From positions 449,495 through 513,494 of the forward strand of contig NZ_JAWXCX010000001.1 of the NCBI RefSeq assembly GCF_033845285.1: DNA of 64,000 nucleotides, given 5' to 3'. A program made the position numbers and the translations under genes. This stretch comes from Marinococcus sp. PL1-022. Lineage in GTDB: Bacteria > Bacillota > Bacilli > Bacillales > Marinococcaceae. This document shows positions 27,602 to 39,337 of the stretch, piece by piece (within the stretch, counting starts at the first letter, position 1; each line of letters opens with the position of its first letter). The notes under the pieces are model-generated. The model saw only the letters and a list, made by a program, of their open reading frames with translations. It made no database searches and was not told the origin of the DNA.

Positions 27602-29071
27602 TTAATTATTGCCGTGTCCGCGGCCGTTTTCCTTGCCGGGGTTAGTTTGTTCAGAAGAGGCTTCCTCGATCAGCCCTTTAATGTCGGTATTATCCATATA
27701 ACCACTGAAGTGATCACTGCCGGCTCCCGCGGCAAAGACTGGAACCATTTCACCAGTGTGCCCGCCGGTATCACTCTCCGCGCGTATTTCGGTGTCGAGT
27801 GCGCCTACACTGTAGTGATCCGCAATGATGGATCCGATTTCCCAGCCCACCTGATATTCAGGGTAGACCTCTCCGGCATCGTCTTCAATATTTGCACGAA
27901 AGGCTTCTAATTCTTCATTTGTTATATCAATATCTGCGTATTCCGAGAATACCTGCTGAATGCTTTCATCAGTATATTCATCAGAGTCTTCCCGGGTTTC
28001 AAGCTGCTGGGCCATGTATTCCGGGGACACTTCAATGTCTTTCAGGCCATCTACATCCATGGTTTCTGTTGCGGACATCCCAAGTGTTTCATGGTCGGAC
28101 AGCACAACGACGAGCGTGTCGTCACGGTCTTCTGCCCATGTAACGACCTGTTCAACGGTTTGATCGAATTCGATCATTTCCTGCCATACGCCCGTAGCGT
28201 CAGCTGCATGGGCAGCGTGGTCAATGCGGGCGCCTTCGACCATCATAAAGAATCCGTCATCATCCTGGGAAAGCACGTCCAGCCCTGTTTCCGTCATAGA
28301 CTGCAGAGACGGCTCTTCGCTGTCGACGTCGTCTTTATCGGTTTTATAGTTCATGTACGAATCATTAAACAGGCCGAGGAGCCTGTCGGGAGTGCCGGCT
28401 TCCTCCAGCTCTTCTTCGGTAGTCGCATACTCATAGCCGCTTTCCTGAAACTCATCCACAAGCCTGTCTTCGCTCTCGTCCTCATCAGCTCCGAAAAATT
28501 CGCCGCCGCCCCCAAGCAGGACATCATATTTCTCTTCGTACTGCTGCTCGGCAATGTCTTCTTCGCTCCCACGGTCAGCCACGCTTGCGGTAAACGAAGC
28601 TGGAGTAGCGTCGGTGACTGTATTATTGGAAATAACGCCGACCTTTTTCCCGTCGTCCTGATACTGATCCAAAATGCTGTCCACTTCATTGCCGTCTTCG
28701 TCAACACCAATGCTTCCATTATTTGTTTTCGTGCCGGTAGCGATTGCGGTGCCGGCAGCAGCTGAATCAGTTACGTTGTTATCAGCGGAATATGTGCTGG
28801 TCATGCCTGTATGTTCAAGCGATTCCATGAACAGCTCACCTTTTTTGCCATGTTCAAGCAGAGAAGCGATCTCCATTTGTCCCATTCCCATGCCGTCTCC
28901 AACCATTACGATGACATTTTCCGGGACGTCTTCCTTAGCATTTTTACTGCTGTTTTCAATTCCGTTTTCATTAGCGTTATCATTGGCTGAGCCATTTGCG
29001 TGAAGAAGGCTCCCAGAGCTGATGACCATTCCTGCGAGAACCCCGACAGTTAACTTTTTTGGAAAATACAT
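27602..29071 (-). CDS. Exported alkaline phosphatase
   Basis: 489 residues from the ATG at 29071, where GGGAGGGTCAGC supports the start over one 24 nt earlier. A signal peptide (about 1-33) is followed by an Asn/Asp-rich region and the alkaline phosphatase domain: metal site GDGMG, nucleophile Ser in VTDSAAAGTA, and the later GARIDHAAHA and SDHETLG metal ligands. Hydrolyses phosphomonoesters outside the cell. The mature protein is strikingly acidic, as in halophile secretomes. The promoter matches sigma-A well; I saw no clear PhoP (TTAACA) repeats, so phosphate control is uncertain. Confidence 0.93.
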   Translation of the reverse strand: MYFPKKLTVGVLAGMVISSGSLLHANGSANDNANENGIENSSKNAKEDVPENVIVMVGDGMGMGQMEIASLLEHGKKGELFMESLEHTGMTSTYSADNNVTDSAAAGTAIATGTKTNNGSIGVDEDGNEVDSILDQYQDDGKKVGVISNNTVTDATPASFTASVADRGSEEDIAEQQYEEKYDVLLGGGGEFFGADEDESEDRLVDEFQESGYEYATTEEELEEAGTPDRLLGLFNDSYMNYKTDKDDVDSEEPSLQSMTETGLDVLSQDDDGFFMMVEGARIDHAAHAADATGVWQEMIEFDQTVEQVVTWAEDRDDTLVVVLSDHETLGMSATETMDVDGLKDIEVSPEYMAQQLETREDSDEYTDESIQQVFSEYADIDITNEELEAFRANIEDDAGEVYPEYQVGWEIGSIIADHYSVGALDTEIRAESDTGGHTGEMVPVFAAGAGSDHFSGYMDNTDIKGLIEEASSEQTNPGKENGRGHGNN

Positions 29072-29125
29072 GCTGACCCTCCCATAATAATTCATAACTT
29101 TTTATATTCTTTGAAATTTTAGTTA

Positions 29126-29314: not shown

Positions 29315-30964
29315 TTATACGCCGGAATGGTTTTTGTACATCCAGAGCACGCCGCTTTTTAACAGACGGGCGACGCGGCCGGTCACTGCTGCTTTGGCAG
29401 TACCGCCCATCACACCGAAGCCGTGCTTTTTCCCTAACGATCCGAGGGTGCCTTTAAGCTTGATCTCAGGCATCGTTTCCGGAAGCGATTCGTTTTTCCA
29501 TCTTTTTTTCATAATTGTAGCGATTTGTTCTGCCTGGCCCTCGGCAAGCTGGGCGCTTGGAGCGTGTGGCAGGCTGGCACAGTCCCCAACGATAAAAATA
29601 TTTTCATCGTTTGTTAAATGATGGTGGGGCGTTAAAATAATTCGTCCCTTCCGGTCTTTTTCCGTATCAAGCTCGCGAATGATTTTGTTGGGCTGGATGC
29701 CTGCGGTCCAAATGATCGCTTCCGACTGGATCCAGTCTTCATGGTTGTACAGGCCTTCTGCCGTCACGGTGGTGATATCGGAATTGCTGATAACTTCAAC
29801 ATCGTGCTTTTCAAACCAGTTCTGCACGTAGTTACTAAGCCGCTTCGGGAACATGGGAAGAATAGTCTCCCCGCGATCAAACAGACGTATGTGGAGATCT
29901 GAGCGGCTCTCCCGTAGCTCGCTGGCCAGCTCTACCCCGCTGAGTCCGGCACCTACGATGCTGACTGCTGCTTTTGGCGGAAGGTTACTGATAGCTTCGT
30001 ATGTTCGGCGTGTTGCTTCCATGCTCTGGATACTGTAGGAGTGCTCTTCTGCTCCCGGGACACCGTGAAAGTTGTCCACTGAGCCAAGGCCGGCAATGAG
30101 TTTGTCATAAGGAAGCGAAGAAGAGTCAGACATGATCACCATCTGATTTTCCATATCGATATGGTCGATCGTGCCAAAGTGAATTTTTAACCGGGAATGA
30201 TCCGGGAACGGAACACGCACCTCATCGTCCGATTCGGTACCGGCAGCAAGCGCGTAGTATTCGGTTTTCATACAGTGATACGGAAGTTTGTCCACTAATG
30301 TAATATCAACATCCTGGGGGAGGTCACTGCCGAGCACGCGCTGAAGAAAACGCATCCCGCCGTAGCCTCCGCCTAATACGATAATTTTTTCCATTGTTTC
30401 TTGTCCCCCTTTGAGTAGCATGCTGTCTATGCCCGCGTGGACCAGCTGCATAAAATGATGAAGTAGTTCTTCGCGATCAGTTTCAGCTCCGATGGATAGC
30501 TGATAGTAAAAATAGCTGTTGATGATGTGTGCCCATCGAGTCGAAGAAATGGAAGGGTCTATTTCCTGCTGGCGGACACCGCTCTCAAGAAGCTGTTCCC
30601 ACGTACGAAGCAAAGCACTGTCATGCTCGACCACATGCCGCCAGATGTGCCTGGTGAGGGAAGGGTTCAGGTGAAAGTCCCCTAAAAAATATCCGGCGTA
30701 GGCGCGAATACGGGAGGGAAGCGTCATGCGCTGAATTTTATACGTCTGCATGTATTCCTGTACCCGGACCATCCGGTCCTCTGCGAGTGCACGCATGATC
30801 GACTCTTTCGTAGGGAAGTAATTGAAAAAAGTCCCTTTGGCGACTTCGGCTGAAGCCGTGATTTCCTGCACAGTCGTCTGCTCAAAGCCCTTTTCCTGGA
30901 ATAAATGCACAGCAGCCTGCAGAATGCGGGAACGTGTCTGCTCTCGTTTTTCCGTTCGTTTCAT
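29315..30964 (-). CDS. yutJ: TetR-family regulator fused in frame to an NDH-2-like FAD oxidoreductase (YutJ)
   Basis: One uninterrupted 549-codon frame. Residues 1-190 are a complete TetR repressor: helix-turn-helix at about 30-50 (TVQEITASAEVAKGTFFNYF) and a ligand-binding-type helical domain. Residue 191 is the normal start of YutJ, a type II NADH dehydrogenase-like flavoprotein, with FAD motif GGGYGG (198-203), NAD motif GAGLSG and the C-terminal GDCA block. No stop separates them. The ATG at 30394 (residue 191) has AAAGGGGG 9 nt upstream, so a free enzyme of 359 residues could also be made. The start at 30964 has AGAGGGGGC. Known YutJ proteins are about 355 residues without TetR. A lost stop codon or a real redox-sensing regulator are both possible. 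Confidence 0.85.
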   Translation of the reverse strand: MKRTEKREQTRSRILQAAVHLFQEKGFEQTTVQEITASAEVAKGTFFNYFPTKESIMRALAEDRMVRVQEYMQTYKIQRMTLPSRIRAYAGYFLGDFHLNPSLTRHIWRHVVEHDSALLRTWEQLLESGVRQQEIDPSISSTRWAHIINSYFYYQLSIGAETDREELLHHFMQLVHAGIDSMLLKGGQETMEKIIVLGGGYGGMRFLQRVLGSDLPQDVDITLVDKLPYHCMKTEYYALAAGTESDDEVRVPFPDHSRLKIHFGTIDHIDMENQMVIMSDSSSLPYDKLIAGLGSVDNFHGVPGAEEHSYSIQSMEATRRTYEAISNLPPKAAVSIVGAGLSGVELASELRESRSDLHIRLFDRGETILPMFPKRLSNYVQNWFEKHDVEVISNSDITTVTAEGLYNHEDWIQSEAIIWTAGIQPNKIIRELDTEKDRKGRIILTPHHHLTNDENIFIVGDCASLPHAPSAQLAEGQAEQIATIMKKRWKNESLPETMPEIKLKGTLGSLGKKHGFGVMGGTAKAAVTGRVARLLKSGVLWMYKNHSGV

Positions 30965-31050
30965 AGAATGCCCCCTCTGCGAAGCTGAAAGCATTTGCAA
31001 AATAAAAAAGTTACAATAGAGAGAACGATTCGGTTGTGCAGCCATTAAAA

Positions 31051-31064
31051 ATGACTGCGGTCAA
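31051..31064. promoter_or_regulatory. TetR-type operator candidate at the fusion gene promoter
   Basis: Minus strand TTGACCGCAGTCAT, a TGAC-N4-GTCA palindrome typical of TetR-family sites, starting 5 nt after the -10 box of the fusion gene, so that binding should block transcription. Confidence 0.5.
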
Positions 31065-31069
31065 TTTTG

Positions 31070-31098
31070 ATTATAGAGAGATACAGCTGCTTTGGCAA
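31070..31098 (-). promoter_or_regulatory. Promoter of the TetR-YutJ fusion gene
   Basis: Minus strand TTGCCA (31093-31098), 17-bp spacer, TATAAT (31070-31075). Confidence 0.7.
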
Positions 31099-38088: not shown

Positions 38089-38134
38089 ACATGAGCTGCT
38101 TTTAACAAAAATCTAAAAAATGGAAGTGATTGAC

Positions 38135-39337
38135 ATGGCAGGAAAAACAAATATTGTTGTTTTAGGCGCTGGCTATGCTGGTCTCGTTTCCGCTTCTAAG
38201 CTCGCAAAAGAAGTAGGAACAGACAATGCAAACATTACGCTGGTCAGCAGGCACGATTATCATTACCAAACCACCTGGCTGCATGAGCCGGCTGCAGGAA
38301 CGCTTCACCATGACCGCACCCGTATTAAAGTCAGTAAAATTCTTGATTTAAATAAAATTAACTTCGTGCAGGACGAAGCTACGAAGGTCGTTACAGAAGA
38401 AAAGAAGGTAACGCTTGCTTCTGGCGGTGAACTGCAGTACGACTACATCATCGTAGGTGTTGGGGCTATCTCTGAAACGTTCGGCATCGAAGGCGTTTAT
38501 GAAAACTCCTACCACCGTTGGACCGTGGACGGCGCCCGCCAGATGAAAGACCGTATTGAATATATGTTTGCCCGCTATCACAGCGACGAAGCAAAAGAAG
38601 AAGACCTGACGTTCGTTGTAGCAGGCGCCGGCTTTACCGGTATGGAATTTATGGGCGAGCTGAGTGAGCGCGTGCCTAAGCTTTGCAAAGAGTACGATGT
38701 GCCGCGCAATAAAGTAAAAATGTACGTTATTGAAGCGATGCCGACAGCGCTTCCAGGCTTTGATCCGGAGCTTGTGGAGTATGCGATGAATTTACTTGAA
38801 AACCGGGGAGTAGAATTCAAACTGGATTCACCGATCAAAGCAGTAACGGAAAACAGCGTCGAGCTGAATACTGGGGAATCCGTAAAAACATCGACAGTAA
38901 TCTGGGCAACTGGTGTCCGCGGCAACCCGCTTATCGAGGAGTCCGGCTTTGAAAACAACCGTGCCCGTGTGAAAGTTGATGATGATCTGCGTGCTCCCGG
39001 CCACGAACGCGAATTTATTATTGGTGACTGTTCCCTGATCATCAATACAGAAATCGACCGTCCATTCCCGCCGACAGCTCAAATCGCTCTCCAGCAGGGC
39101 GAAACAGCTGCCGATAACATCAAAGCATTGATGGAAGGACGTCCGACAGAAGCATTTGTAGCCGATATCAAAGGTACAGTGGCTTCTCTCGGTGGAAAAG
39201 AAGCGATTGGCGTTGTAGGTTCGAAAAAGCTTTACGGCCGTCCCGCCTACTTTATGAAAAAAGTAATCGAAAACCGTGCATTATGGGTTCTCGGCGGCTT
39301 TGGCTTCCTGCTTCGCAAAGGACAAAGCCCGTTCTAA
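38135..39337 (+). CDS. ndh: Type II NADH dehydrogenase
   Basis: Single-subunit, non-proton-pumping NADH:menaquinone oxidoreductase on the inner membrane face. 400 residues from ATG 38135 (GGAAGTGA upstream), which gives the usual N-terminus; an ATG 15 nt earlier overlaps that site. Motifs: FAD site LGAGYAGL, NAD site VVAGAGFTGMEF, C-terminal FAD contact GDCS and QIALQQG, and an amphipathic C-terminal membrane-binding stretch. Likely Rex-controlled. It uses the menaquinone for which mqnE is needed. Confidence 0.96.
   Translation: MAGKTNIVVLGAGYAGLVSASKLAKEVGTDNANITLVSRHDYHYQTTWLHEPAAGTLHHDRTRIKVSKILDLNKINFVQDEATKVVTEEKKVTLASGGELQYDYIIVGVGAISETFGIEGVYENSYHRWTVDGARQMKDRIEYMFARYHSDEAKEEDLTFVVAGAGFTGMEFMGELSERVPKLCKEYDVPRNKVKMYVIEAMPTALPGFDPELVEYAMNLLENRGVEFKLDSPIKAVTENSVELNTGESVKTSTVIWATGVRGNPLIEESGFENNRARVKVDDDLRAPGHEREFIIGDCSLIINTEIDRPFPPTAQIALQQGETAADNIKALMEGRPTEAFVADIKGTVASLGGKEAIGVVGSKKLYGRPAYFMKKVIENRALWVLGGFGFLLRKGQSPF

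Follow-up and report, generated by a model that had tools for sequence, protein, structure and literature searches.

A TetR-type repressor fused in frame to the flavoprotein YutJ: a candidate autogenous repressor-enzyme of salt- and alkali-loving Bacillus relatives

Proteins in which a DNA-binding domain is combined with a metabolic enzyme are already known, PutA and MocR being of this kind. The redox repressor Rex, which controls respiration genes, binds DNA and carries an NAD(H)-binding domain. In trifunctional PutA the DNA-binding domain is joined to an FAD enzyme, and according to PMC5293562 the protein switches between a DNA-bound repressor and a membrane-associated enzyme. The MocR/GabR regulators combine a GntR DNA-binding domain with a whole enzyme fold, that of the PLP aminotransferases, which serves as the sensor (PMC5320631).

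The locus described here was found in a stretch of 64,000 nucleotides (the window) from Marinococcus sp. PL1-022, located on contig C1 of a 3.2-Mb genome. In a single frame it encodes a TetR protein followed by YutJ, a flavoprotein resembling type II NADH dehydrogenases (NDH-2). Like PutA, the fusion joins a DNA-binding domain to an FAD enzyme, and autogenous repression is proposed here for it as well; PutA differs in having an RHH domain and an enzyme of another family, whereas the fusion has a TetR domain and probably gives a free enzyme through an internal start. Repression, switching and membrane association belong to PutA, whereas for the fusion all three are hypothetical. The likeness to MocR/GabR lies in the whole enzyme fold proposed as sensor, the difference in that the enzyme half of the fusion retains its cofactor motifs and is probably also made alone. 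In a Pfam scan the fusion matched TetR_N and Pyr_redox_2 (pyridine nucleotide-disulphide oxidoreductase), not the RHH, proline dehydrogenase and P5C dehydrogenase domains of PutA nor the GntR domain and aminotransferase fold of MocR/GabR. With these two families only, it also differs from Rex: its sensor half would be an enzyme-family flavoprotein.

The initial annotation of this DNA knew of no described protein with this domain pair. A description of a TetR protein fused to an NADH dehydrogenase-like flavoprotein was likewise absent from the open-access literature matches listed. A 2008 paper reportedly dealt with an 'NDH-2B' of B. pseudofirmus OF4; the open-access literature search returned no match for it.

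The fusion frame and its two halves

A full TetR protein running without a stop into YutJ had been noticed at the outset, and one frame of 549 amino acids was indeed found. The fusion can be read directly from the sequence, and its parts are as follows:

29315..30964, minus strand: tetR-yutJ fusion ORF, 549 aa plus stop, open from the ATG at 30964 to the stop at 29315
30398..30964, minus strand: TetR part, residues 1-189; nine predicted helices, HTH at about 14-60, last helix 164-186
30395..30412, minus strand: linker, residues 185-190; pLDDT below 50 at 185-189, residues 188-190 freely variable
29318..30394, minus strand: YutJ part, FAD/NAD(P)H flavoprotein of 359 aa (residues 191-549)

An in-frame ATG further upstream, at 31045, would give a protein of 576 aa. 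Since this ATG is not preceded by an SD-like site and the aligned relatives begin at 30964, the latter position was taken as the start. The TetR_N match (aa 14-60, E 9e-16) reached 57.8 bits against a cut-off of 24, Pyr_redox_2 (aa 193-472, E 2e-33) also exceeded its curated cut-off, and both families were matched by all 27 aligned fused proteins (E<=0.001). The linker between TetR (residues 1 to about 186) and YutJ (191-549) has about five residues, and its length is identical in all 32 fused loci read.

A sequencing error at the junction was considered and rejected, since four genomes of the window's genus share this open frame with members of many other genera. In a sample of 61 genomes the full-length, stop-free fusion occurred in 20, the window's own included, and the junction, read in each of the 20, was free of stops. 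Unbroken across so many genomes, the frame is neither an error nor a product of chance. Both halves are under purifying selection: dN/dS, obtained by simple count, was 0.055-0.16 for the TetR half (six species pairs, one of them with dS close to saturation) and 0.011-0.078 for the YutJ half (five pairs, a sixth having reached saturation of dS).

An AlphaFold2 model of the monomer, computed on 42 rows, had a mean pLDDT of 81.6 and a pTM of 0.58. It places helices at 3-186, a low-confidence stretch at 185-189 and the flavoprotein core from 191 on, with 505-549 unreliable. The TetR half is predicted to be all-helical, its nine helices including a C-terminal helical domain as in the TetR fold, and its profile matched TetR proteins in the PDB such as 3lwj and 1vi0; the TetR_N score over the Pfam cut-off places it in the TetR family. 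Mean pairwise identity was 0.66 for residues 1-60, 0.37 for the TetR C-terminal domain and 0.73 for YutJ.

The best Foldseek match of the model was chain A of 9a5s (56% identity), an integrative cross-linking model titled 'Integrative model of YUTJ-FER', followed by the NDH-2 of Caldalkalibacillus thermarum (4NWZ), with which YutJ shares the fold, the cofactor motifs and about 30% identity. NDH-2 enzymes are recognized by two dinucleotide motifs, a GD pair, WxxG and the quinone motif AQxAxQ (PMC5299459, in which one NDH-2 survey is also described as having set aside proteins carrying other fused domains). Both GxGxxG motifs are present in the window (GGGYGG and GAGLSG), and G198, G200, G338, G340 and G343 are invariant over 42 fused and unfused rows; in the first motif the third Gly is replaced by N or C in some relatives. 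G460 D461 and W419 G422 are likewise invariant over the 42 rows. Where NDH-2 enzymes have AQxAxQ, YutJ reads AQLAEG (AQLAES in 2 of 27), which is not AQxAxR or APxAxQ either, and a Gln stands one place after the motif position. The C-terminus is modelled as one low-confidence helix (531-546) and is shorter than that of the window's YumB-like paralogue. Thus the designation as type II NADH dehydrogenase-like held for the fold, the dinucleotide motifs, GD and WxxG, and failed for AQxAxQ; with this motif absent and one low-confidence helix modelled against the two-helix membrane anchor of true NDH-2 enzymes, the name stays 'type II NADH dehydrogenase-like'.

The altered quinone motif and the title of 9a5s, which pairs YutJ with Fer, make ferredoxin a candidate partner besides quinone; they hint at an exchange of electrons between YutJ and ferredoxin in place of quinone. 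The main text of PMC10090944 makes no mention of YutJ-Fer. The YumB-like NDH-2 gene lies about 7 kb away (38120-39337, plus strand); its product is 30% identical to the YutJ half and has a longer C-terminus. A study of B. subtilis spores detected only the YumB isoform, and neither the ndh nor the yutJ product (PMC12772218).

Internal start and promoter palindrome

An internal ATG at 30394 with an SD-like site in front of it (AAAGGGGG, 30412-30405) was part of the initial annotation, and this arrangement is present as described and conserved in all 32 fused loci compared (31 named loci and the window):

30405..30412, minus strand: SD-like site AAAGGGGG within the coding frame; AAAGG[GA]G in 32/32 fused loci
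30392..30394, minus strand: internal ATG (Met191), predicted start of free YutJ; ATG in 32/32

In each of them AAAGG(G/A)G is followed by ATG at a spacing constant to one base, and the Met191 column is invariant in both alignments (A1 and A2). Pairwise identity is 0.10-0.19 in the three columns preceding the internal ATG and 1.0 for the Met. The residues encoded by the SD-like site differ between loci (KGG, KRG, QRG, QRR, KRR, QRS, KRS), showing that it is the DNA rather than the protein that is conserved. Where the second of these residues is Arg, its codon is AGG in 29 of 29 loci; elsewhere in the fused genes AGG accounts for 47 of 855 Arg codons (5.5%). Like the fusion, unfused YutJ, as in B. 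subtilis, is encoded beside divergent yuzB; it has the same dinucleotide motifs and the same kind of SD site, which there serves as the ordinary ribosome-binding site of yutJ. In the fusion the open frame thus continues across the region in which yutJ starts in unfused relatives. They differ from the fused loci in that this TetR and the palindrome described below were found in none of the 49 unfused named loci.

Because the internal start is conserved as DNA, the two products suggested earlier, fusion and free YutJ from one mRNA, are probable. A promoter for free YutJ inside tetR was rejected, as a consensus scan of the minus strand gave no promoter-like site there; the scan gave no terminator behind the fusion gene on this strand either. 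RNA folding near the internal start amounted to -2.3 kcal/mol in the window (-3.5 and -7.0 in loci L071 and L076) and at the window's tetR start to -12 kcal/mol; compared with shuffles there was no clear difference (no z-score beyond 1.4), and looser RNA at the internal start is weak support for initiation at most. An ORF (27602-29095, minus strand) that by eye resembles a secreted alkaline phosphatase separates the fusion from a yuzD-like gene.

Upstream of the tetR start two further elements were located:

31070..31098, minus strand: promoter-like TTGCCA-17-TATAAT, 11/12 match, the best in the region scanned
31052..31063, minus strand: TGACCGCAGTCA, a palindrome and candidate operator lying six nt downstream of the -10 box

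Judged from its position relative to TTGCCA-17-TATAAT, the palindrome would cover the expected transcription start. Among the named loci, all 31 that are fused have TGACYnnRGTCA within 900 nt upstream of the gene, and none of the 49 unfused ones does (one of these held only 269 nt). A separate comparison of 20 fused loci had it in all 20. The gap from the -10 box was 5-7 nt in 30 of the 31 loci and 12 nt in one. Among 24 further unfused loci (L028-L037, L053-L066) two had a looser palindrome, TGACnnnnGTCA, about 500 nt upstream and away from the promoter.

Twenty hand-chosen genomes were searched in full for the -10 box followed by the palindrome. The pattern was present in 16 of 16 fused and 0 of 4 unfused genomes, and a control pattern gave one match across all 20. 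It always stood upstream of the fusion, as a single copy in 15 of the 16 and with a second copy in one (G032), where the extra site sits inside a permease-like open frame. The arrangement of promoter and palindrome, and its near-uniqueness by this pattern, are thus seen in the DNA itself. The bare palindrome is not rare by itself, since the window's genome contains it at 11 places and matches a control pattern at 5. A wider regulon was considered and set aside, as 10 of the 11 lie inside open frames (156-730 aa); none was found by the palindrome pattern in the window's genome, a search that degenerate sites would escape. The predicted target is therefore the promoter of the fusion gene itself, with hardly any other site indicated by this pattern. 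Overlapping the promoter and co-inherited with the fusion, the palindrome is a candidate operator of the TetR half, and this co-occurrence suggests an autogenous repressor.

Distribution and history of the fusion

A search for the two-domain architecture in relatives, proposed with the initial annotation, showed that, of 397 genomes sampled within the order, 39 have the unbroken fusion and that these belong to 19 of 135 genera (E<=1e-170, a cut below which broken or partial copies score). The TetR half on its own matched 42 of the 397 genomes (E<=1e-16; eight candidates scored per genome). Thirty-nine of these matches were the fusion genes of the same 39 genomes, in open frames of 542-597 aa, and the other three hit TetR proteins encoded by frames of 201-216 aa, the match extending over about 120 aa. 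Outside the order the fusion was found neither in 398 genomes of the class (E<=1e-165; two matches, both within the order) nor in 398 genomes of the phylum (E<=1e-120; eight matches, the window's own alone being fused).

A named collection, in which the best 80 of at least 570 confirmed relatives were kept as loci, contained 31 fused and 49 unfused loci. The carriers, among them Marinococcus, Salibacterium, Halalkalibacter, Alkalihalophilus pseudofirmus OF4 and Shouchella, are salt- and alkali-loving relatives of Bacillus; the nearest named ones among the matches listed were Marinococcus halotolerans (98% protein identity) and M. halophilus (96%). As the fused loci share ancestry they are not independent trials, and counts such as those given here overstate the case.

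Separate tetR and yutJ genes in close relatives would have spoken for two proteins. No such pair was found among the 49 unfused named loci, and the relatives compared had either the fusion or YutJ without this TetR. A TetR match near yutJ in 3 of the 49 was on the opposite strand (42-46% identity over 52-63 aa). These are different TetR proteins near yuzB/dapF, similar over the HTH (L100:1219-1374, L098:1314-1490 and L103:1219-1374, minus strand). Of the 24 further unfused loci four had the same kind of opposite-strand match, and one had a TetR match of 30 aa (E 0.4).

In a YutJ tree of 87 rows, made by a quick method, 52 rows formed a clade in which 7 Geomicrobium/Natribacillus rows were nested among 45 fused ones, and four additional fused rows branched deeper. 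A topology test, run without the outgroup and one long row, rejected the fused rows alone as one clade (p-AU 0.0013) and did not reject the fused rows together with Geomicrobium/Natribacillus (p-AU 0.25), a grouping that requires three changes on the quick tree itself. The latter value fits one gain and at least one loss, and the distribution as a whole would be explained by one gain with losses, or by transfer.

Loci of Geomicrobium, Natribacillus and JMAK1 (L097, L098, L100, L101, L103, L028-L037) have kept YutJ and its ribosome-binding site and are devoid of the TetR half and the palindrome; a similar TATAAT stands upstream in 8 of the 10 loci L028-L037. In the Geomicrobium/Natribacillus group the TetR half and the palindrome both seem to have been lost. 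As this group still keeps YutJ, TetR control appears dispensable, and with JMAK1 it represents a loss experiment made by nature.

A proposed repressor-enzyme and its alternatives

The interpretation that we favour, and consider reasonably probable, is a PutA-like autogenous repressor-enzyme whose mRNA would also yield free YutJ. The promoter would produce one mRNA, on which ribosomes starting at tetR would make the TetR-YutJ fusion and those entering at the internal site free YutJ. Because there is no stop between the halves, free TetR would be untranslatable and every repressor would carry an enzyme half. The fusion, probably as a dimer, would bind TGACCnnGGTCA across the transcription start and repress the gene, and the flavoprotein half would report the state of the enzyme to the attached TetR. 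When YutJ is loaded and working, its FAD reduced by NAD(P)H, DNA binding would loosen and more enzyme would be made; docking of YutJ to its electron partner, possibly ferredoxin, could be the trigger instead. DNA binding, repression and the two proteins in the cell we infer from the elements described above; that the flavin/NAD(P)H state acts as signal, and in which direction, we infer as well. That a transcription factor uses a complete, working respiratory-type flavoenzyme as its sensor, so that the flow of electrons through YutJ, with NAD(P)H as donor and quinone or ferredoxin as acceptor, directly sets yutJ transcription, is put forward tentatively.

TetR proteins usually have a ligand pocket in the C-terminal domain. 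This domain is predicted to be complete here, with nine helices in the model, and it could bind a small ligand of its own despite its weak conservation. The fusion would then only keep repressor and enzyme in step, YutJ taking no part in signalling, and the enzyme could come from the internal start anyway. We consider this unlikely, as among the large regions conservation is lowest in the putative pocket domain (0.37). Moreover, a stop before an intact internal start would cost such a system nothing, yet 39 of 39 strong TetR matches are unbroken (542-597 aa), and no strong match came from a shorter frame next to yutJ.

In a homeostat, as a further alternative, free YutJ would associate with the fusion through its YutJ half and thereby split or loosen the TetR dimer, so that repression would depend on the ratio of the two starts and not on redox. 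Such a system would suit an mRNA with two start sites, both having an SD-like site, a palindrome at the promoter and a linker of constant length in 32 of 32 loci. NDH-2 enzymes and TetR proteins both act as dimers; for YutJ, however, the dimer is assumed from its family, and such titration appears more improbable still. The short linker, of low confidence in the model and variable at residues 188-190, could also be cleaved after translation to give an ordinary TetR and an ordinary YutJ. No conserved cleavage motif was seen in it, its conserved letters are explained by the SD-like DNA, and the internal start would be superfluous, which makes cleavage very improbable.

Alkalihalophilus pseudofirmus OF4 is a genetically tractable alkaliphile. 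With the fusion present in it, a near-unique promoter site and a conserved internal start, the autogenous repressor-enzyme is directly testable. The fusion offers a handle on YutJ, the role of which is little described in the open-access literature consulted, and on redox control in alkaliphiles. If the proposal is true, one gene would make both an enzyme, from the internal start, and, from the full frame, its own redox-reading repressor, and alkaliphilic and halophilic Bacillaceae would possess a TetR-based counterpart of PutA.
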